Assembly: GCA_021781185.1 (NCBI GenBank)
Contig: JAJXXI010000523.1
Span: forward strand, 1 to 7,141
Length of the DNA stretch: 7,141 nt
Direction of reading: 5' to 3'
From: a bacterium
GTDB lineage: Bacteria; Verrucomicrobiota; Verrucomicrobiia; Limisphaerales; UBA11358
Shown: positions 1-7,141 of the stretch, piece by piece
Numbering within the stretch: position 1 is the stretch's first letter
Layout of the letters: each line of letters opens with the position of its first letter
Notes under the pieces: generated by a model
Databases searched by the model: none
What the model saw: only the letters and a program-made list of their open reading frames with translations
What the model was told of the DNA's origin: nothing
Program-made: the position numbers and the translations under genes

Positions 1-859
1 CAGAACCAAACCCAATGCCAGAGGTGTTGAAATAGACGTTGTAAGCCACATTGGAACCGCTGGTATCTTGAATGAACACCGCCCGGGTCAACACATTGCT
101 CGTTCCCGCGCCATCCTGTTTGATATAGGCGGTCGAGTTGGTCAGATATAAAAAATACGGAGCCAGCGGGAAATAAGCTGATTCGGCATAATTCGCCCCC
201 AAATACAGACTGGGATCCCATGTTAAAAACTGATTCGAATTCACCCCGAAGACGCCCGTGCCGGCAGGTGTTATCGAACCGTTTTCGATGTTGAGCGCGG
301 CATGACTCAAGTCCACATCATGACCGGAAAAACTGATTAAACCGTCCAGTCCCGCATCCACCCCGCCCGGATTCACAATATTGGTTGCATTGATCCGACA
401 CTGGGCATAGCCCAATTGGCCAAGCACGCCCCCGTATGGATCGTTCGTATTATTGATGGAGCCACCGCTGATTGCTCCAGAATTATAAAAGTTAGCGGCC
501 GGTGTCCGCGCCCCGGTGCCGCTCCCGGGCTGGTTGTCAAATTGAAAGCCGGTGTTAGCCATCATCACGCCCGTATTGGTATAATTCATCGTGTCTGATG
601 TCTCATAAAACGGCTGGGTCAGAGAGATGGAGGTGAAATTAATGATGAAGGTGCCGGTGTTGATAAAATTGGTGGCATCAATCACCGGCGGAAATGTTTG
701 TGTTCCGGGGTAGGTGACAATGGCATCGTTTTTATAGACAGCGTCACCCGCGAGTCCCACGCGCGTTAACGCGAGGCTCAACAACCCGCATAACAGCGGC
801 CATTTCATCAAGCGTGTCAAGCCGTTCCCTGAGCGATGGATATGTAGCGTGCTGTTCAT
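1..859 (-). CDS. Secreted beta-helix-like/adhesin-like protein, N-terminal part (3' end outside window)
   Basis: From ATG at 859 the frame stays open to the left edge, giving 286 residues of a protein that continues beyond the window. A signal peptide is clear: from Met18, 'MKWPLLCGLLSLALTRVGLA' with likely cleavage after Ala37. The start is either codon 1 (ATGA overlap with the upstream gene, 17-residue leader) or codon 18 (ATG at 808, classical signal peptide length). The mature part is rich in Gly, Asn and Thr and poor in charge. It carries repeated 'f.NtG.i' elements: 'FINTGTFIIN' (65-74), 'YTNTGVMMAN' (93-102), 'FYNSGAISGG' (124-133), and then 'GLISFSGHDVDLSHAALNIE' (173-192). Such spacing of Asn-Gly turns and short hydrophobic strands is typical of right-handed beta-helices in haemagglutinin- and autotransporter-like proteins. 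No enzymatic motif is seen. It is probably a large surface or secreted structural protein; the exact family is not identified. Confidence 0.8.
   Translation of the reverse strand, partial: MNSTLHIHRSGNGLTRLMKWPLLCGLLSLALTRVGLAGDAVYKNDAIVTYPGTQTFPPVIDATNFINTGTFIINFTSISLTQPFYETSDTMNYTNTGVMMANTGFQFDNQPGSGTGARTPAANFYNSGAISGGSINNTNDPYGGVLGQLGYAQCRINATNIVNPGGVDAGLDGLISFSGHDVDLSHAALNIENGSITPAGTGVFGVNSNQFLTWDPSLYLGANYAESAYFPLAPYFLYLTNSTAYIKQDGAGTSNVLTRAVFIQDTSGSNVAYNVYFNTSGIGFGS
856..859 (-). promoter_or_regulatory. ATGA stop/start overlap (translational coupling)
   Basis: On the minus strand the bases read ATGA. TGA ends the 773-residue protein and ATG can start the last gene. No Shine-Dalgarno-like sequence is placed suitably before this ATG, so coupling is likely if this start is used. 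A second in-frame ATG at 808 would give a more standard signal peptide. Confidence 0.6.
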
Positions 860-3177
860 TGAATCGTAATTGGGTATGACCACTGAACCGATCTTCCTAA
901 AGAGTCCGTCAGTATAAGTGTAAAATCAAATGTGCCGGATTGGGCTGGCGTGCCGGAAAGTGTTCCGCCCGGCGATACCGCGAGTCCACTCGGCAAGCCG
1001 GAGGCAGACCAAGTTAATGGGGCGCTGAAAGCCCCGCCTGTCGCAGAAAAAGTTAGCGGTGGATACGGGGTGTCGCTGAATCCTACAGGCAAAATGCTGG
1101 GGGATACGTGAATCAGCACTTGATTTTCCCAATTATTGATGCTTGTGCCGTTGGGAAATACCACCGGGGCATTGGTGGTGCCATCAAACGAGGCCCAGAT
1201 AAAGTATATGGAGTAAAACTGATTAATGATGTCTCCGCCCGGAGTTTGATTGAAATACGACGCCCCATCCATGGTGGAAGAAGGGGTGTTATAGAACAAT
1301 GGACCATCCTTGTTAAACGAGATCGTCGTGGAAGGAGTGATCGTTCCCGGCCCCGCCAGTCCCGGCAGGACATTGCCGGTATCAAACGGAGGAACGGTTG
1401 ATTGGCTGGTGATTTGAAATATTTGACTGGCCGGCCCCGGAGTCAGATCCAAGGCTGAAAACAGAAAATCCGGCTGCGTCACAATCCGTTCAAAGTGCTG
1501 AACCACGGTCTGGCCGTTCGTCACCAAGGTCATCGTGTAATCATTCGTAATCGGCTGATAATATTGGCCGAGCAGCGAATCATAATCCGCCCGAACATAT
1601 TTCAGCTTCTTGATTCCCTGATAGAGACCAGTGGCATTCGCCGTCTCAGTGCAGGTGACCGGCAAAATTTGAAATGAATAGTTTGTAAAATAACTGACCA
1701 GATAAACGGAATTGCTCACACTCACAGTGTTGGTGCTGGTCACCACATTGGTGCTTCCGCCGGTCAGATAGTTGGTCACTGCGGTAACATTAAAATGACT
1801 ACCATCAATGATGTCCAGCGGGCAAACATTCGTTTCAAAGAGCGGCAATACAAAAAAGTCACCGGCAATCTGATTGGTTAATTTTATAGTCGTGTTGGTG
1901 ATTGCTGGAGTGCCATAAGGGGAACCCACCGGCGCGCTAACCGTAAGAGTCTGCCAACTGCCCACTGCATTCGTATAGTAGTGATTGGTCACAATATTGG
2001 CAAATTGGTAGTGGTAAATCGTCTGCCAATAGCCCGTGTAATTGGTGGCGACTGCAAATACCGGCGGCGTGCCATAAGGGGAGCCGATCCCCGCATTTTT
2101 ATAATAGTATGAATAGGTGGCATTTGAAGACCAGACAAGGCTGTTGGAATAGCTGTCGATCACCACGCCAGGATAAGTTGCGAGCAGATTCGTCGGGCCA
2201 TTTGTTGCGGCGTAGGAAATGAACGCCGCTAGATCACCGTAGCCAAAACCTCCATTCGTGTTCCCATTAAAATAATAAAAACCAGCGGCATTGGTCCCAG
2301 TATAGCCGGCGGGAGGAAACGACTGCGGATTGGTCAGGTTGGTGCTGATCACGCCCAACAAGCTTCCGGCCGGGACGGTTTCCCAATTAATGTTGTTGGT
2401 GCTCAACATATAACGCAGTCCAGACACATCATCCCGTGTTAATCCCGTGTAATAATCCCCCCAAGACATTGTGTCGGAAGCGACCGGCGAATAGATATCA
2501 GCCAAAGGATCTACGGAAAAGGGAACCGCCTGGGCTAACACCGGGCTTCCAGAGCACACCTCAAGTATTTGATAACTATAAAGGGTGTTATTCACATAAG
2601 GCGAATACTGAAGCTGGTTCAACGGCGAGGAAAAGTAATCAAAATTTCTTTGGACCACCGAATATTCCATGCTGATGGGACATGAGCCACCGGACGGCAG
2701 ATAGCGGTTGTGCAGCGTCCAAGAATAGTGAACCGGATCCGCCAATCCCACCTGCTGCATCATCAATCCCAGAGTAAATGACTTTAAATCAAACAATCCC
2801 AGCGCCTGGGCCTGATAATTCTGCTGGCGGGTTTCAATTGGAAACTCAGAGAGTTGCTGGCTATAGCTGTCAACATTCGTCAACGAGTTCAAAATGGTAA
2901 AGGCAGCATCCACCGAGGTCGCACCGTCCGTTCCAAAATAGTCAAAAAAATTCGCGTCATAGGCGTAATACATCACCGGAATATTACGCCGGAACTCCTC
3001 GCCGAGGTTTTTAGGAGCAACATCATCCGAGGGCGGCCCGTAACCGATATTCTGAACCTGCCAGCTATCTCCCCCATTGCCTACCGGGCCGGCGAGCGAA
3101 AACGCCCAGGATGTTTGCAGGCTGGAGGCCAGCAACAGAACCCACAAAATACTTTTATTCATTTGCTGCATACACAT
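856..3177 (-). CDS. Secreted 773-residue protein of unknown function with C-terminal putative-Ig (He_PIG-like) domain
   Basis: I do not recognise the whole protein. A signal peptide covers about residues 1-25 ('NKSILWVLLLASSLQTSWA', cleavage before Phe26). ATGs at codons 1, 3 and 6 are all possible starts and none has a clear ribosome binding site. Residues about 26-260 form one domain. Its pieces 'NLGEEFRRNIPVMYYAYD', 'LKSFTLGLMMQQVGLADP' and 'GLTRDDVSGLRYML' vaguely recall matrixin-like metalloproteases, but there is no HExxH zinc motif, so protease activity is not supported. Residues 350-560 are low in charge and rich in Tyr, Asn and Thr, with a 53-residue periodic element (GSPYGTP at 365 and 418). 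Cysteines at 166, 208, 452 and 509 could form disulfides after export. Residues about 693-771 ('PPLTFSATGGAFSAPLTWSA', 'SGLPSGLAV', 'GTLSGTP') are a typical putative-Ig domain. The TGA overlaps the next start as ATGA. A surface or extracellular location is inferred. Confidence 0.8.
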   Translation of the reverse strand: MCMQQMNKSILWVLLLASSLQTSWAFSLAGPVGNGGDSWQVQNIGYGPPSDDVAPKNLGEEFRRNIPVMYYAYDANFFDYFGTDGATSVDAAFTILNSLTNVDSYSQQLSEFPIETRQQNYQAQALGLFDLKSFTLGLMMQQVGLADPVHYSWTLHNRYLPSGGSCPISMEYSVVQRNFDYFSSPLNQLQYSPYVNNTLYSYQILEVCSGSPVLAQAVPFSVDPLADIYSPVASDTMSWGDYYTGLTRDDVSGLRYMLSTNNINWETVPAGSLLGVISTNLTNPQSFPPAGYTGTNAAGFYYFNGNTNGGFGYGDLAAFISYAATNGPTNLLATYPGVVIDSYSNSLVWSSNATYSYYYKNAGIGSPYGTPPVFAVATNYTGYWQTIYHYQFANIVTNHYYTNAVGSWQTLTVSAPVGSPYGTPAITNTTIKLTNQIAGDFFVLPLFETNVCPLDIIDGSHFNVTAVTNYLTGGSTNVVTSTNTVSVSNSVYLVSYFTNYSFQILPVTCTETANATGLYQGIKKLKYVRADYDSLLGQYYQPITNDYTMTLVTNGQTVVQHFERIVTQPDFLFSALDLTPGPASQIFQITSQSTVPPFDTGNVLPGLAGPGTITPSTTISFNKDGPLFYNTPSSTMDGASYFNQTPGGDIINQFYSIYFIWASFDGTTNAPVVFPNGTSINNWENQVLIHVSPSILPVGFSDTPYPPLTFSATGGAFSAPLTWSASGLPSGLAVSPGGTLSGTPAQSGTFDFTLILTDSLGRSVQWSYPITIQ
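1903..2085 (-). repeat. Internal 159-nt (53-codon) periodic repeat in the 773-residue protein gene
   Basis: A 16-nt sequence at 2070-2085 recurs at 1911-1926 with one mismatch, both coding for GSPYGTP (residues 365-371 and 418-424). The matched copies are exactly 159 nt apart, so they are in frame. 'YTGYWQT' and 'AVGSWQT' in the stretch between them echo each other. This suggests a duplicated beta-structured unit, now diverged. Confidence 0.55.
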
Positions 3178-3180
3178 TGG

Positions 3181-5286
3181 TTAGCGAAGGAGATACACGC
3201 GGTAATAGCCGGCAGAGCCGTTCCCGACAAATACTGAATCATTGGTGCCCGCTGCAAACCGGGGAGATCCCAAATTCTGCCACGTCTCCAAATTTGTGCT
3301 GGTTTGAACTTGATAGGTAAAGCCGGGCTGAGCGTTCCAGTTGACATAGAAACCCTGAGCAGTCCTGACTAGGGAAGTCTGCAACCAGGTGCTGGAATCA
3401 TAAGGATCACCACCGCTCAAAAAGACCTGCAAAAGCGTCAAGCCGCCGGGGGCCAACGCCACATTGGGCGCCGGCCAGAAATTGGTGCTATATTTGCCGG
3501 TGCTTGCGTTGTAGCCACCAAAATTAGCCGCCATCCACTCATAGGGGAGCCCAAAATAATTCCCCCCACCCCAAGTGGTTCCGCTGCTGGAAGGCGACAT
3601 TGGCGATACGCGTCCGTCCACCCGCAAATAGTCCACTTGAAACGAATGGGTGCTGTTCGTGCTCAAACCGTTTTCCGCCGTCATAATCCAGACATTGCTG
3701 GTTGTAACGGCCATCGGGGTTGCGGCGTTGTCGACAAAGACCTGATAATTCGAAACGGATATACCCAGCAACGGAGTCCACGAGACCTGTAGTTGCGGCT
3801 GATATGCGTTGTTGCTCAAGTTAAACGGCGCATAAACAAATGGTGCCGGCATGGGCAGCAAAATGCCGTTAGCATTGATGTAACGCTGGGCATAAAGGTC
3901 AAAACTATTGGGCAAACCCGCGAAAGAGGTCCAAACCGCCAAAAATTGGTTCGCTCCGTCGGACGCAACAACCGGCTGCATTTGCTGGCTGGCAGTTGTG
4001 GTATTGACCCGGAATTCACCGCCGGTTGGCGTGCCATCGTTATGAATAAGCTGGCCATAGACACCTTCGCGTGAACCGTCCTGACCCAGACTGGTCCAAA
4101 CTACGAGATAATCCAATCCAATCGAAACCAAGCGCGGCGCATATTGATTGCCCGCCACATGTGAATTCACCAGACTGGCGGCGTCGCCTGTCAAATTATT
4201 GCTGAAGGAACGCGCGTAAACATCCCAGCCGTTGGTAAATGTAACCATGTCACGCCCGGACCATGCGACCATGAAACTGCCGTCGGACGCGCCCGCCACG
4301 GCTGGATTGGCACAAGGGTTGAAAGACTGGTTCACCACAAACTCGTTGCCATCCGCCACGCCGTTGTTTTGAAATACTCGCGCATAAATGTCCACACTCG
4401 GAACAGTGATAGAACCAGATGTAGAATAGGCAGAATTGGTGGCTCCCACCAGCGGCGCAACCAGCCGTTGCTGTTCGGAGACCCATGTCACGACGAAGCC
4501 ACCGTTGGCCAGCGCAGCCACTGCCGGCGACCGCTGGTTGAAACTGGTAAACTGGTTCACCAAAAATTCACTCTGAACCGTGTCCCCGGAAGGCGACAGG
4601 ATTTTGGCGTAAACATCAAGCAGACTGTTGGTGCCCGCCTGGTTAAAGCTGCTCCAGACCACCACGACGTTGCTGTTGTTCAACGTGGCAATGGCGGGAT
4701 TGATCTGAAAACCATTGGTGAACGTGCTGACCACCAGATCCGTTGCCGTGAGCCAAGTATTTCCAGATGACAGATAGCGGGCAAAAATACGCTGACTGCC
4801 TCGTATCCCGCCCTGCCAGACAAAGGCCGCTCCGCCGTTTTTCAATAGGGTTACACGAGCATTTTCCTGATCATTCGCCCCCTGCGCGTTCACGCGGAAG
4901 GTGCTCAAGGTTCCAGACAACGTGTTGTCCACTTGACGCGCACTGATGCCCCATCCATCTCCGTCCGTGGCATTATCCTGCCAGACCACAAACCCACCAT
5001 TGGTGGAGAGCGCGACGTCGGGAAACATCTGGTCGCCCGGCAGCGAACCAATGACGGCATATTCGGTGCCGTTGGTGGTGTAATAATTGGTCTGGGCAAA
5101 CACGGACAACGGCAAGACCGCCGCAAGCGTAATGGACGCGGCAAACAGTTGGAATCGGGCTGTCAATGGCATCATGGAATTTGGGGGAAACATCTCACGC
5201 CACAGGCTGGTCAAAAAACAACCCACCGCTGCCGTCGCGCGGTTAAACGCGCCGACCACATTGTTATTCCGCATTTGCAAATTCAT
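3181..5286 (-). CDS. Secreted protein with seven propeller-like repeats, FN3-like domain and verrucomicrobial C-terminal module
   Basis: This 701-residue protein has a signal peptide that seems to begin at Met38/Met39 ('MMPLTARFQLFAASITLAAV'), with likely cleavage after 'SVFA' (residue 64). The ATG at 5286 therefore leaves a 37-residue leader; translation may instead start at 5175 or 5172. Residues about 85-475 hold seven divergent repeats of roughly 40-75 residues with the pattern 'P.VA...nGGFVV.W.S' then 'DvYAR.f...G' then 'EF.VN'. Strand rhythm and repeat number suggest a seven-bladed beta-propeller. Residues 480-570 resemble a fibronectin type III domain. Residues 577-636 ('YFGLPYEWMAANFG', 'GGLTLLQVFLSGGDPYDSST') look like a degenerate form of the 'DGLPDWWE..' / 'LTNLQEYLAGTDP' linker of verrucomicrobial proteins. 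The C-terminus 'GFTYQVQTSTNLETWQNLG' to 'GYYRVYLLR' is a small beta-rich module, possibly for sorting or binding. No catalytic motif is seen; a binding or surface role is inferred. Only 2 nt separate it from the exonuclease and 3 nt from the next gene. Confidence 0.85.
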   Translation of the reverse strand: MNLQMRNNNVVGAFNRATAAVGCFLTSLWREMFPPNSMMPLTARFQLFAASITLAAVLPLSVFAQTNYYTTNGTEYAVIGSLPGDQMFPDVALSTNGGFVVWQDNATDGDGWGISARQVDNTLSGTLSTFRVNAQGANDQENARVTLLKNGGAAFVWQGGIRGSQRIFARYLSSGNTWLTATDLVVSTFTNGFQINPAIATLNNSNVVVVWSSFNQAGTNSLLDVYAKILSPSGDTVQSEFLVNQFTSFNQRSPAVAALANGGFVVTWVSEQQRLVAPLVGATNSAYSTSGSITVPSVDIYARVFQNNGVADGNEFVVNQSFNPCANPAVAGASDGSFMVAWSGRDMVTFTNGWDVYARSFSNNLTGDAASLVNSHVAGNQYAPRLVSIGLDYLVVWTSLGQDGSREGVYGQLIHNDGTPTGGEFRVNTTTASQQMQPVVASDGANQFLAVWTSFAGLPNSFDLYAQRYINANGILLPMPAPFVYAPFNLSNNAYQPQLQVSWTPLLGISVSNYQVFVDNAATPMAVTTSNVWIMTAENGLSTNSTHSFQVDYLRVDGRVSPMSPSSSGTTWGGGNYFGLPYEWMAANFGGYNASTGKYSTNFWPAPNVALAPGGLTLLQVFLSGGDPYDSSTWLQTSLVRTAQGFYVNWNAQPGFTYQVQTSTNLETWQNLGSPRFAAGTNDSVFVGNGSAGYYRVYLLR
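3862..5034 (-). repeat. Seven tandem protein repeats, probable beta-propeller blades
   Basis: The region codes for residues about 85-475 of the 701-residue protein. Approximate units are 85-138, 139-193, 194-249, 250-324, 325-379, 380-433 and 434-475. Best-preserved blade signatures are 'SPAVAALANGGFVVTWVS', 'ANPAVAGASDGSFMVAWSG' and 'MQPVVASDGANQFLAVWTS', followed by 'DIYARVF', 'DVYARSF' and 'DLYAQRY'. Unit 4 carries an insertion of about 25 residues between its two halves. Unit 2 is the most diverged. Boundaries were set by eye. Confidence 0.65.
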
Positions 5287-5288
5287 TT

Positions 5289-6170
5289 TTAAATCAACTC
5301 CGCCTGTTTTCGCGCCGCCGGCACATCCAGCGCGGCAAGCATTCCCTTGAATCCCCAGCCGCCGAACAGTCCGCGCAACATTTCCCGGTCAACCGGCCGG
5401 ACAACCATTTGCTCCGGCAAAAATTCACATGCCAGTTCCGACAACTGCACCAACTGCTGGTTTCGCTGGAGAACAGTGACAGACTGCCGCAACACCGTTC
5501 TTAACCTTTCCGACTTCACTTCATCCACCCGGGCCAACAATTCCCGAACTGAACCAAACTGCCTTAATAACTCGGCGGCGGTTTTTGGCCCCACTCCCGG
5601 CACGCCAGAAATGTTGTCCACCGCATCGCCCATAAGCGCCAGCCAGTCCGCCACCTGCTCCGGCTCCACTCCAGTTTTGGCCACCACCTGCTCGCGTCCC
5701 CAAATCATCCCGGTCTTGTCGTTCGGATTTAACAGTCCGACCTGCTCTGAAACCAACTGCATAAAATCTTTGTCGGCACTGGCAATCACTACCTTCCAAC
5801 CCGTCGCCTGCGCCCGCCGTGTCAGGCTGGCGATATAATCATCGGCCTCCACACCTTCCCCACAATAAGCCGACACCCCGGAAGCGGCCAAAAACTTGCC
5901 CATCTCGTCCAACTGAATCCGCAAATCAGCCGGCATTTCCGGCCGGTGCGCCTTGTAATCCGGCAATGCCGCCAGCCGCTCGGTGCTCAACCCGCCATCC
6001 CACACCACCATCATGTGGGTCGGCTCCACCGCCGTCCGCATTTTTTCCAACATCTTGACGAATCCAAAAACTGCATTCGTCGGCCGGCCGGACGGAGAAC
6101 GCAGCTCCCGGATGGCATGAAATGCCCGGTATGCGTAGGCGTGGCCGTCAACAATCAGCAGCCGGCTCAC
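5289..6170 (-). CDS. Stand-alone 5'-3' exonuclease, DNA polymerase I N-terminal (FEN/H3TH) family
   Basis: This 293-residue protein is the size of bacterial single-domain 5'-3' exonucleases and lacks the 3'-5' exonuclease and polymerase domains of PolA. Family members cleave 5' flaps, RNA primers or duplex 5' ends using two metal ions held by acidic residues. All expected acidic residues appear present: D8 in 'LLIVDGHAYAYRAFHA', D58 in 'VVWDGG', E108/D110/D111 in 'GVEADDYIASL', D133/D135 in 'ASADKDFMQL', and D182/D185 in 'MGDAVDNISG'. The arch-region motif 'LPDYKAHRPEMP' (69-80) and the helix-3-turn-helix DNA-binding motif 'GVPGVGPKTAAELLRQFG' (189-206) are intact. No signal peptide is visible, so it is cytoplasmic. 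Translation starts at GTG (6170), overlapping the secretin TGA as GTGA, which suggests translational coupling. The GTG is supported because the family pattern begins within three residues of it. Activity is inferred from motifs; its role in this operon is unknown. Confidence 0.95.
   Translation of the reverse strand: MSRLLIVDGHAYAYRAFHAIRELRSPSGRPTNAVFGFVKMLEKMRTAVEPTHMMVVWDGGLSTERLAALPDYKAHRPEMPADLRIQLDEMGKFLAASGVSAYCGEGVEADDYIASLTRRAQATGWKVVIASADKDFMQLVSEQVGLLNPNDKTGMIWGREQVVAKTGVEPEQVADWLALMGDAVDNISGVPGVGPKTAAELLRQFGSVRELLARVDEVKSERLRTVLRQSVTVLQRNQQLVQLSELACEFLPEQMVVRPVDREMLRGLFGGWGFKGMLAALDVPAARKQAELI
5298..5304 (-). promoter_or_regulatory. Possible ribosome binding site (GGCGGAG) for the propeller-repeat protein
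   Basis: On the minus strand GGCGGAG lies inside the last codons of the exonuclease, with 11 nt between it and the ATG at 5286. Spacing is slightly long but acceptable. It is the best Shine-Dalgarno-like match among the junctions of this operon, and it supports the upstream ATG at 5286 over later in-frame ATGs that lack such a site. Confidence 0.45.
6167..6170 (-). promoter_or_regulatory. GTGA stop/start overlap (translational coupling)
   Basis: On the minus strand the bases read GTGA. GTG is the exonuclease start and TGA the stop of the secretin C-terminal half. I see no clear Shine-Dalgarno sequence just upstream, so initiation probably depends on ribosomes terminating on the secretin piece. 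Confidence 0.75.
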
Positions 6171-6817
6171 GGATTGGAATTCGGCATCCGCACCATTTTA
6201 ACCGACTCCGTTGCCTGCCCCGCCCCCGGCGGTTGCACCGGAATGGAGTTTTGTGCAAACGGCAGGTCATCATCCGAATGAACGCGGTTGCCAGCCGGAT
6301 CAACGATGGTCGCCGTGACAAAGATCATCAGATTTTTTTTCGTGGCGGTTTTGCTCTGGCTCTGAAAAAACCGGCCCAGTAATGGCAAATCGCCAAGAAC
6401 CGGAACCTCGTCCTTGGTGTTCTGCTCCTCTGAGGAGATCAGGCCGCCAATGACCACGGTCTGATTATCCCAAACATTCACCGAAGTAACCACCTGCCGG
6501 ATGGTAAAATCGGGCAAAACCACCGGCAACTGAACCACATTCAAATTGCCAGTGACCTGGGGAATGGTCGGTGCCGTGTCGTAGCCGTTGAAAGTGGTCA
6601 CCGACGGAATGAGCGACATGTTAATCGTGCATCCATCAGCCAACACATAAGGCACCACGTCCAAGATCGGGCCAGTTTCCACCGGCTGAGTGCTAAAGGT
6701 AATCGCCGAAGTGCCGGGATTGATTTGGGCACGCAGTGAAGGTGCGGCCACCATGCCACTGAACGCCAGTATAACGAGCGTCAGATGCAAAAGTTGATAA
6801 TTGGATTGAATTTTCAT
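6167..6817 (-). CDS. Secretin C-terminal half with its own signal peptide (split secretin)
   Basis: This 216-residue protein starts with a convincing Sec signal peptide (about residues 1-30). It has Lys2, a hydrophobic core 'LTLVILAFSGMVAA', and likely cleavage after 'SLRA'. From residue 32 it is the distal part of a secretin domain: 'VETGPILDVVPYVLADG' (46-62), 'DNQTVVIGGLISSE' (117-130), 'VPVLGDLPLLGRFFQS' (138-153) and 'KKNLMIFVTATIVDPAGN' (160-177). These are the most conserved secretin elements, including the VPxLGDxPxLG signature. The protein lacks the N-terminal periplasmic N0/N1-type domains and the first strands of the secretin domain, which lie in the gene just upstream. A tail of about 35 residues follows the domain. 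ATG at 6817 is chosen because it opens the signal peptide; a weak GGAA lies 10 nt upstream. Its TGA overlaps the GTG start of the exonuclease. It could be a working half-subunit, or a remnant. Confidence 0.85.
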   Translation of the reverse strand: MKIQSNYQLLHLTLVILAFSGMVAAPSLRAQINPGTSAITFSTQPVETGPILDVVPYVLADGCTINMSLIPSVTTFNGYDTAPTIPQVTGNLNVVQLPVVLPDFTIRQVVTSVNVWDNQTVVIGGLISSEEQNTKDEVPVLGDLPLLGRFFQSQSKTATKKNLMIFVTATIVDPAGNRVHSDDDLPFAQNSIPVQPPGAGQATESVKMVRMPNSNP

Positions 6818-6841
6818 GTTTGCTCGTTTCCGTAAATTTTA
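6725..6841 (-). other. 117-nt in-frame segment (stop, 21-nt spacer, signal-peptide coding) interrupting a secretin reading frame
   Basis: The segment runs from the TAA of the upstream secretin piece to the Gln31 codon of the downstream piece. It is exactly 39 codons: one stop, seven codons between the ORFs, and 31 codons of signal peptide. The ORFs on either side share the same frame, and deleting the segment would join '..TSTTTGQ' directly to 'INPGTSAITFST..', giving a normal-looking secretin domain. A CAA codon sits just before the segment and another is its last codon, so it is bounded by a 3-bp direct repeat. That is too short to prove a mechanism. The boundaries are inferred from domain logic, not from alignment. 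Confidence 0.6.
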
Positions 6842-7141
6842 TTGTCCCGTCGTGGTCGAGGTTGTCACACCGGCAGTTTGAGCGGCTGAGCCTTGTTGGA
6901 AACTGACGCCGGTGATCACCGTGATGACCTGGGTTGCACGCATCTGGGTTTGCCGCCCGCTGGTGGTTGTCACTTCTGGTTCCGCGAGCGACTCATAACC
7001 GCTGCGCTGCTGCAGGGCATGGATGACCATGCGGAAATTGGGATTGGTCAGGATGCCAGTAATCGTTGCAATCGCGGGTGCCGAGTTTTGCAGACCACCA
7101 GTCACCAACTGGTCGTTTGCCGAACCCGCGATTGTGCTGGC
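6839..7141 (-). CDS. Secretin-family protein, N-terminal side of the secretin domain (partial; 5' end outside window)
   Basis: The reading frame is open from the right window edge to a TAA at 6841-6839, giving the last 100 residues of a longer protein; the true start is outside the window. The segment 'ILTNPNFRMVIHALQQRSGY' followed by 'LAEPEVTTTSGRQTQMRAT' and 'VITVITGV' matches the start of the secretin domain of type II/III secretion and type IV pilus channels. There a helix precedes the 'L..P.VTT.SGR.A.i.v' strand pair. Secretins form multimeric outer-membrane pores. The protein stops after a Thr/Gly/Gln-rich loop, before the conserved second half of the domain ('D.VPYV', 'VIGGL', 'LGD.P.LG'). 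That missing half is encoded in the same frame by the next gene, 21 nt downstream. Whether this piece is functional alone is unknown. Family assignment is good; which secretion system it serves cannot be told. Confidence 0.85.
   Translation of the reverse strand, partial: ASTIAGSANDQLVTGGLQNSAPAIATITGILTNPNFRMVIHALQQRSGYESLAEPEVTTTSGRQTQMRATQVITVITGVSFQQGSAAQTAGVTTSTTTGQ

Follow-up and report, generated by a model that had tools for sequence, protein, structure and literature searches.

A likely type IV pilus secretin of Limisphaerales divided inside its pore domain into two predicted exported chains

We analyzed a 7,141-nucleotide (nt) stretch of DNA (hereafter the window; contig JAJXXI010000523.1 of GenBank assembly GCA_021781185.1) from a bacterium of the order Limisphaerales (Verrucomicrobiota; GTDB lineage UBA11358), in which two adjacent open reading frames (ORFs) on the minus strand encode consecutive parts of one secretin. 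Our reading, to which we give a probability of about 0.77, is that a likely type IV pilus secretin gene has been split at a loop that by alignment is the tip of its first gate hairpin, and that the two halves would be exported separately by the Sec pathway and likely re-form one subunit.

Both ORFs lie where the initial annotation of this DNA had placed them. The first ORF begins outside the assembly, the contig being cut off at 7141, and its visible piece closes with VITGVSFQQGSAAQTAGVTTSTTTGQ before its TAA stop. The second ORF opens with MKIQSNYQLLHLTLVILAFSGMVAAPSLRA, followed after the predicted cleavage site by QINPGTSAITF, and goes on as QINPGTSAITFSTQPVETGPILDVVPYV. The Pfam model PF00263 (Secretin) covers the second ORF at profile positions 47 to 169 of 169 (E 5.6e-29) with 101.3 bits against a curated cut-off of 27.5, a match above the cut-off from which the start of the domain is missing. 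That start was found in the first ORF of the relatives L171 (positions 1-38) and L173 (1-41), in both cases under the cut-off. The first piece in the window had no Pfam match; it matched the NCBIfam models for GspD and for the Amuc_1098 family, in a region that precedes the one matched by the second piece. The division interrupts PF00263 at about positions 38-47 and does not run between N-domains and secretin domain as in the RhcC1/RhcC2 type. With the PF00263 and NCBIfam matches in this order, the annotated pair of consecutive parts of one secretin domain is borne out. By alignment, the second ORF after its signal peptide would comprise the descending strand of gate hairpin 1, the remaining C-domain and a C-terminal tail.

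The same division recurs across the genus. Some match was present in 49 of 49 genomes, and 47 of them, including that of the window, were counted (G008 and G018, without a clear ortholog, were left out); the secretin was split in 32 and a continuous single ORF in 15. Among five related loci, L004-L007 (Verrucomicrobia subdivision 3) show the same two-ORF layout and L008 one continuous ORF. Complete first ORFs in split genomes span 712-806 amino acids (aa) stop to stop and end in a tail rich in Thr, Gly, Gln and Asn with Q, P or L as the last residue, and the gap from the first stop to the second ATG is 14-38 nt in 31 of the 32, the remaining genome (G043) having 208 nt. By eye, the gap in G043 (locus L098, ORF1 stop at 3463 and ORF2 ATG at 3672) consists of tandem repeats of about 30 nt.

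The reading frame shared by the two ORFs, which the initial annotation had stressed, is real in the window but incidental in the family: the frames are the same in 11 split genomes, the window among them, and differ in the other 21, so that the family as a whole cannot be put down to one nonsense mutation or to readthrough. Recoding, by which readthrough or frameshifting would yield a full-length protein besides the short first half, could draw on the cases of shared frame; we consider it very improbable, given the genomes with differing frames (no search for slippery sites was made), a hydrophobic signal peptide that would end up buried at the gate, and a Peptidase_S74 domain that terminates ORF1 in three genomes. 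The second ORF might instead encode a small pore or periplasmic protein that has its own role and is no partner of the first half, as its own start, its predicted signal peptide and the presence of further secretin-domain genes in the genome would allow. This we regard as improbable, since the second ORF begins where the first half stops within the secretin domain, adjoins the first half in all 32 split genomes, and aligns with the C-terminal part of the continuous proteins. The two halves would very probably form one subunit together.

The second piece had been annotated as carrying a complete Sec signal peptide, and this prediction holds up. When starts were scored for an early basic residue, a hydrophobic core and then an A-x-A type site, with the cleavage site placed blind, all 32 second-half starts passed, and controls almost never did: 3 passed among 408 internal Met positions, none among 43 exonuclease starts and none among 126 windows at the break in continuous proteins. 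(A first count had located cleavage by Ala-Gln, and Ala at -1 was there partly by construction.) In the alignment of the 32 second halves (A3), Met1 and Ala30 are invariant and Gln31 nearly so. A global protein set gave 1970 matches at 0.55-1.75 times the query length; a looser signal-peptide test was passed by 116 among the 120 matches listed, and the other 4 look like shortened start calls. Complete first ORFs in relatives also begin with a signal-peptide-like start. With a predicted export signal on each half, each pore subunit would therefore be built from two proteins.

Selection was estimated as the ratio of nonsynonymous to synonymous substitution rates (dN/dS) in 13 pairs of split genomes, each half separately. 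Nine of the 13 pairs had dS >0.4 in both halves, with dN/dS of 0.04-0.18 in the mature second half and 0.07-0.16 in the first; the low-dS pair G013/G019 gave 0.17 for the first half and 0.04 for the second, and the signal peptide of the second half ranged from 0 to 1.7. Both halves are thus mostly under purifying selection. A gene broken by nonsense mutation or frameshift, or seemingly so through an assembly error, is what one might suspect from the existence of continuous relatives, which the initial annotation had named as evidence that would count against a genuine split; such relatives do exist, yet none of the 32 split genomes shows progressive decay. The same break, with its signal-peptide start, recurs in 31 other congeners and also in nine genomes of other families, purifying selection acts on both halves in most pairs, and the signal-peptide features are kept; we rejected pseudogene and assembly error on these grounds and hold a broken gene to be next to impossible. 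That a frameshift or simple nonsense mutation does not account for the break, and that two independently exported polypeptides are to be expected, both claimed from the window alone, agree with what the relatives show, and we consider it almost certain that neither half is an artifact and that both are exported and maintained.

The split protein is likely a type IV pilus secretin, because it resembles the Amuc_1098 (Akkermansia PilQ) family. The model of that family, NF042912, was the top-scoring one for both ORFs of the split locus L096 (201.9 bits for ORF1, 121.8 for ORF2) and for the continuous L077 (288.5 bits); its curated cut-off of 750 bits was missed by the split halves and by the tested continuous relative alike. 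ORF1 of L096 also carries tetratricopeptide repeats (TPR; Pfam TPR). The features of the window and of the related loci discussed below are collected in Table 1.

Table 1. Coordinates of the divided secretin, its neighbor and related loci (window positions unless a locus is named).
Feature	Position	Strand	Basis or remark
First ORF, C-terminal end	7141 down to 6839	minus	100 aa visible, open at contig end, TAA stop
Ascending strand of first gate hairpin, aligned residues RATQVITVITGVSFQQG	6890..6940	minus	profile alignment to 5wq8/5wq9/6hcg, weak scores
Low-complexity Ser/Ala/Thr/Gly/Gln tail; freed C-terminus, hairpin tip	6842..6889	minus	sequence
First-ORF stop TAA	6839..6841	minus	sequence
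Intergenic gap, 21 nt, TAA to next ATG	6818..6838	minus	sequence
Second secretin ORF, ATG start, 216 aa	6817 down to 6167	minus	PF00263 match
Predicted Sec signal peptide of second ORF, 30 aa	6728..6817	minus	cut predicted after SLRA, then Q
Second gate hairpin region FNGYDTAPTIPQVTGNLNVVQLPVVLPDF	6506..6592	minus	shorter than in most continuous relatives
Secretin signature VPVLGDLPLLGRFF	6365..6406	minus	alignment to solved secretins
5'-3' exonuclease (DNA polymerase I-like N-terminal domains)	5289..6170	minus	PF02739, PF01367; next gene
GspD-like secretin of the window's genome, L001 (G000:C288)	1378-2592 and 2625-3536	minus	two ORFs
S74-bearing first halves	L171 4856-7651, L172 2904-5645, L173 3558-6557		Peptidase_S74

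The break had been placed in a variable loop, and alignment now gives that loop a name. In a profile alignment to the structures 5wq8, 5wq9 and 6hcg, the break aligns with the tip of the first gate hairpin, and the T of RAT in the first piece aligns with the hinge Gly453 of Vibrio cholerae GspD. In a model of a continuous relative, residues 234-245 form the ascending strand of the first hairpin, the loop at the position of the break has a predicted local distance difference test (pLDDT) score under 50, and the second gate hairpin is the loop between strands 293-308 and 336-342. On this mapping the cut probably lies in the first gate hairpin.

The split state tends to go with a shorter second gate hairpin. 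Most split proteins have 63-68 residues from the LDV to the WD motif, a stretch that spans this hairpin, and most continuous proteins have 70-75; with a cut-off at 68 residues the pairing of split with short and continuous with long holds in 79 of 84 rows (exceptions G121, G058, G087, G037 and G026). G091 (split, 63) and G062 (continuous, 74) were left out of the 84 rows, their first half being short; G030 was misparsed as 54 (66 in another parse, in which G029 and G035 were misparsed), and the classes were unaffected. Seven independent pairs taken from the tree of the block before the break, built from the genus and six outgroup rows, gave 6 or 7 as expected and 0 opposite (sign test, p 0.016-0.031).

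The trees of the second half and of its flanks conflict. The tree of the second-half block needs a single change of state, on a weakly supported branch (69/15), as a single simple split in the genus would require, but we rejected that history, given 8 changes in the block before the break (at least 7 forced by well-supported branches) and 6 in the tree of the downstream exonuclease (41 of 47 rows; at least 4 forced). The very long branch G017 was left out of the trees of the second-half block and of the block before the break, and the first concatenated trees (one of them also without G017) were set aside, the signals of the blocks being mixed. Because of this conflict, we take it as probable that the gate segment was exchanged between lineages along with its state, split or continuous. 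Among four sister pairs whose states differ, nucleotide identity points the same way clearly in one: G042 (split) and G005 (continuous) share 46, 70 and 67% in three 150-nt gate windows, against 67-91% over the rest. G032/G040 show a lesser dip, and G035/G011 and G012/G046 show no clear dip past the junction itself. Among same-state controls, G048/G041 and G004/G036 dip in a single junction window, while G015/G014 and G030/G020 have no dip. Instead of exchange, the gene may have been split or fused several times, with convergence in this block. A wider second-half tree, weakly supported, with unsettled bootstrap and without the continuous rows G136 and G081, which the motif search missed, has 7 state changes, at least 3 of them forced by well-supported branches; continuous members of the genus nest among split ones in it, and some of them may therefore be re-fusions.

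The cut in this loop is not confined to the genus. In a sample of 116 genomes of the order, 94 had a match; 4 of these belong to the genus and are all split, and among the other 90 the secretin is split at the same loop in 9 (G066, G131, G094, G118, G147, G063, G087, G091 and G104), continuous in 80 (25 loci checked, 55 by open-frame length) and cut by a contig end in one (G108). In a phylum sample of 240 genomes, the homologs outside the order, among the matches listed, have frames of at least 640 aa except for five that run into contig ends. A scan of 10 proteins found a Peptidase_S74 domain on the first-half end in G131 (E 6.9e-12), G094 (2.3e-13) and G147 (4.2e-9). In these three a Gly-rich linker leads to the Peptidase_S74 domain, of the endosialidase chaperone type with the motif SDRN(L/V)K, and the first half closes at the break with a helical tail resembling a coiled coil; a signal-peptide-like start is still present on the second half. 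A search of the open-access literature found no secretin with Peptidase_S74.

Several points weigh against our reading. The secretin is continuous in the 15 congeners and in the 80 other genomes of the order described above, so that the split is not needed for function. A continuous paralog stands beside the split secretin in G004:C11 (L084), G028:C91 (L085), G118:C127 and G147:C16. The initial annotation had named a second intact secretin as a possible reason to discount the split one; in the window's genome, which is 74.6% complete, a first-half query found no second pilus-type secretin. The gate mapping has weak scores for this stretch (8-22 bits) plus strand order, and AlphaFold of the second ORF alone was poor (pLDDT 48, predicted template modeling score 0.21). 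The short-hairpin cut-off of 68 residues was chosen after the lengths were known, G087 is a clear exception to the hairpin link across families, a wider independent-pair test with 4 usable pairs was not significant, and the link may be plain linkage inside an exchanged segment. As to selection, the low-dS pairs G001/G003 (ORF1 0.26, ORF2 0.82) and G006/G001 (0.39 and 0.39) gave higher ratios, and dS was not computable for G038/G043.

A second secretin of the same genomes, which resembles GspD, is also cut in two. In the relative L116 its first ORF covers positions 1-295 and its second 280-599 of the 600 positions of the GspD model, which puts the cut inside the periplasmic N3 domain. All GspD-like loci examined were split, 30 of 30 in the genus and 27 of 27 elsewhere in the order (L115-L144, L187-L213), and in L206 and L207 a gap of about 0.8 kb separates the ORFs. 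The second GspD-like ORF has, by eye, a signal-peptide-like start and is then Gly-rich. Of the 66 genomes with a match in the order sample, 64 show a frame of 343-512 aa, the size to be expected of a separate second GspD-like ORF, some of the unchecked ones possibly being cut by a contig end; the GspD-like secretin looks continuous in G054 (942 aa) and G078 (765 aa). No N3 constriction was found in the accessible text of PMC6532946. The GspD-like and the pilus-type secretins share the division into two ORFs with a signal-peptide-like start on the second, and differ in that the former is cut in N3 and not in the pore domain and is far more uniform across the order.

For the pilus-type secretin we hypothesize that the TPR and N-domains in the periplasm, together with the ascending strand of the gate, would come from the first chain, and the descending strand, the second hairpin and the rest of the barrel strands from the second, the two complementing each other during ring assembly in the outer membrane. 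The least certain steps come after this: two free ends would replace the closed hairpin that normally narrows the channel, they might loosen or retune the gate for passage of the pilus, and the freed end might let an extra domain hang on, as Peptidase_S74 does in three genomes. A changed gating is a tentative proposal, which we put at somewhat under even odds.

Neutral fission would account for the same two chains with gating unaffected: they would re-form the secretin, a disordered loop would tolerate a stop, a start and a signal peptide, and the state would drift. The low complexity of the loop and its low confidence in the model agree with this, as do the coexistence of both states in one genus, the continuous state of most of the order, and the cut of the GspD-like secretin at a different low-complexity loop, which points to a general tolerance. 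What such drift leaves unexplained is that a shorter second gate hairpin accompanies the split state, that the same loop is cut in several families (7 changes on the best tree, at least 3 forced), and that a signal peptide has to be gained at the same event; we think neutral fission possible but rather doubtful. A broader proposal, for which we see an even chance, treats these as heteromeric secretins in which two free chain ends from separately exported polypeptides take the place of each subunit's closed gate hairpin. Selection could act on such an open gate, which would have originated several times, would pass between lineages as a cassette along with the shortened second hairpin, and could bear a domain of the self-processing, chaperone type on the freed end. 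With the GspD-like secretin cut in two as well, divided secretins would therefore be a general building principle in this order.

If our reading is right, two chains exported separately can make up one subunit of an outer-membrane ring, which is relevant to the folding and assembly of such rings, and the order offers a natural series of close relatives in which the first gate hairpin is closed or cut and the second changed to match. The naming of these genes calls for caution, as second halves go under the names of whole secretins in some sources ("general secretion pathway protein D," for instance).

Two-gene secretins are already known, namely RhcC1/RhcC2 of the rhizobial type III secretion system (T3SS) and HrcIIC1/HrcIIC2 of the Pseudomonas syringae T3SS-2. 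Like the split secretin, they have, in the accessible text of PMC3574062 and PMC3459982, N-terminal and C-terminal parts on separate polypeptides; the division there runs between an N-domain protein and a secretin-domain protein, the genes lie apart with others between them, and a separate (Tad) origin is given for the second gene (PMC3459982). Unlike RhcC1/RhcC2, the split secretin is cut inside the secretin domain, its genes are adjacent, and the pair corresponds to a single uncut gene in close relatives. A search of the open-access literature found no description of a secretin cut inside the pore domain; the statement in the initial annotation that no such secretin had been described stands for a cut inside the pore domain and fails for two-gene secretins as such. 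Amuc_1098, the PilQ of Akkermansia muciniphila, has a TPR-containing N-terminal part and a C-terminal secretin domain like those of the split protein, but is a single chain of 907 residues according to the accessible text of PMC4960237, and both the split halves and the tested continuous relative fall under the cut-off of its family model. VcPilQ (PDB 6w6m) and GspD (5wq8, 5wq9) appear to share with the split secretin the fold, the strand order and a gate of two hairpins per subunit; as far as the accessible text of PMC7545093 and these entries go, they are single chains with a closed first gate hairpin and a hinge glycine, where a Thr is aligned in the split secretin.

The remainder of the window and its genome add a few observations. 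A search with the complete first half of a relative found only this one first-half end in the genome, and the second-half protein of the window is present on 4 contigs, with a 94% identical protein elsewhere, which also speaks against an assembly slip. The exonuclease gene is a conserved downstream neighbor, found there in L004-L008 too, and upstream in these loci stand two conserved ORFs that may be like Amuc_1100/1099. Three further ORFs on the minus strand of the window had no match in Pfam or NCBIfam: two large ones of 701 aa (3181-5286) and 773 aa (856-3177), and one of 294 aa (2-883) that runs off the contig start. In L004-L006 an ORF of 693-770 aa likewise follows the exonuclease and ends in similar letters (..LR).

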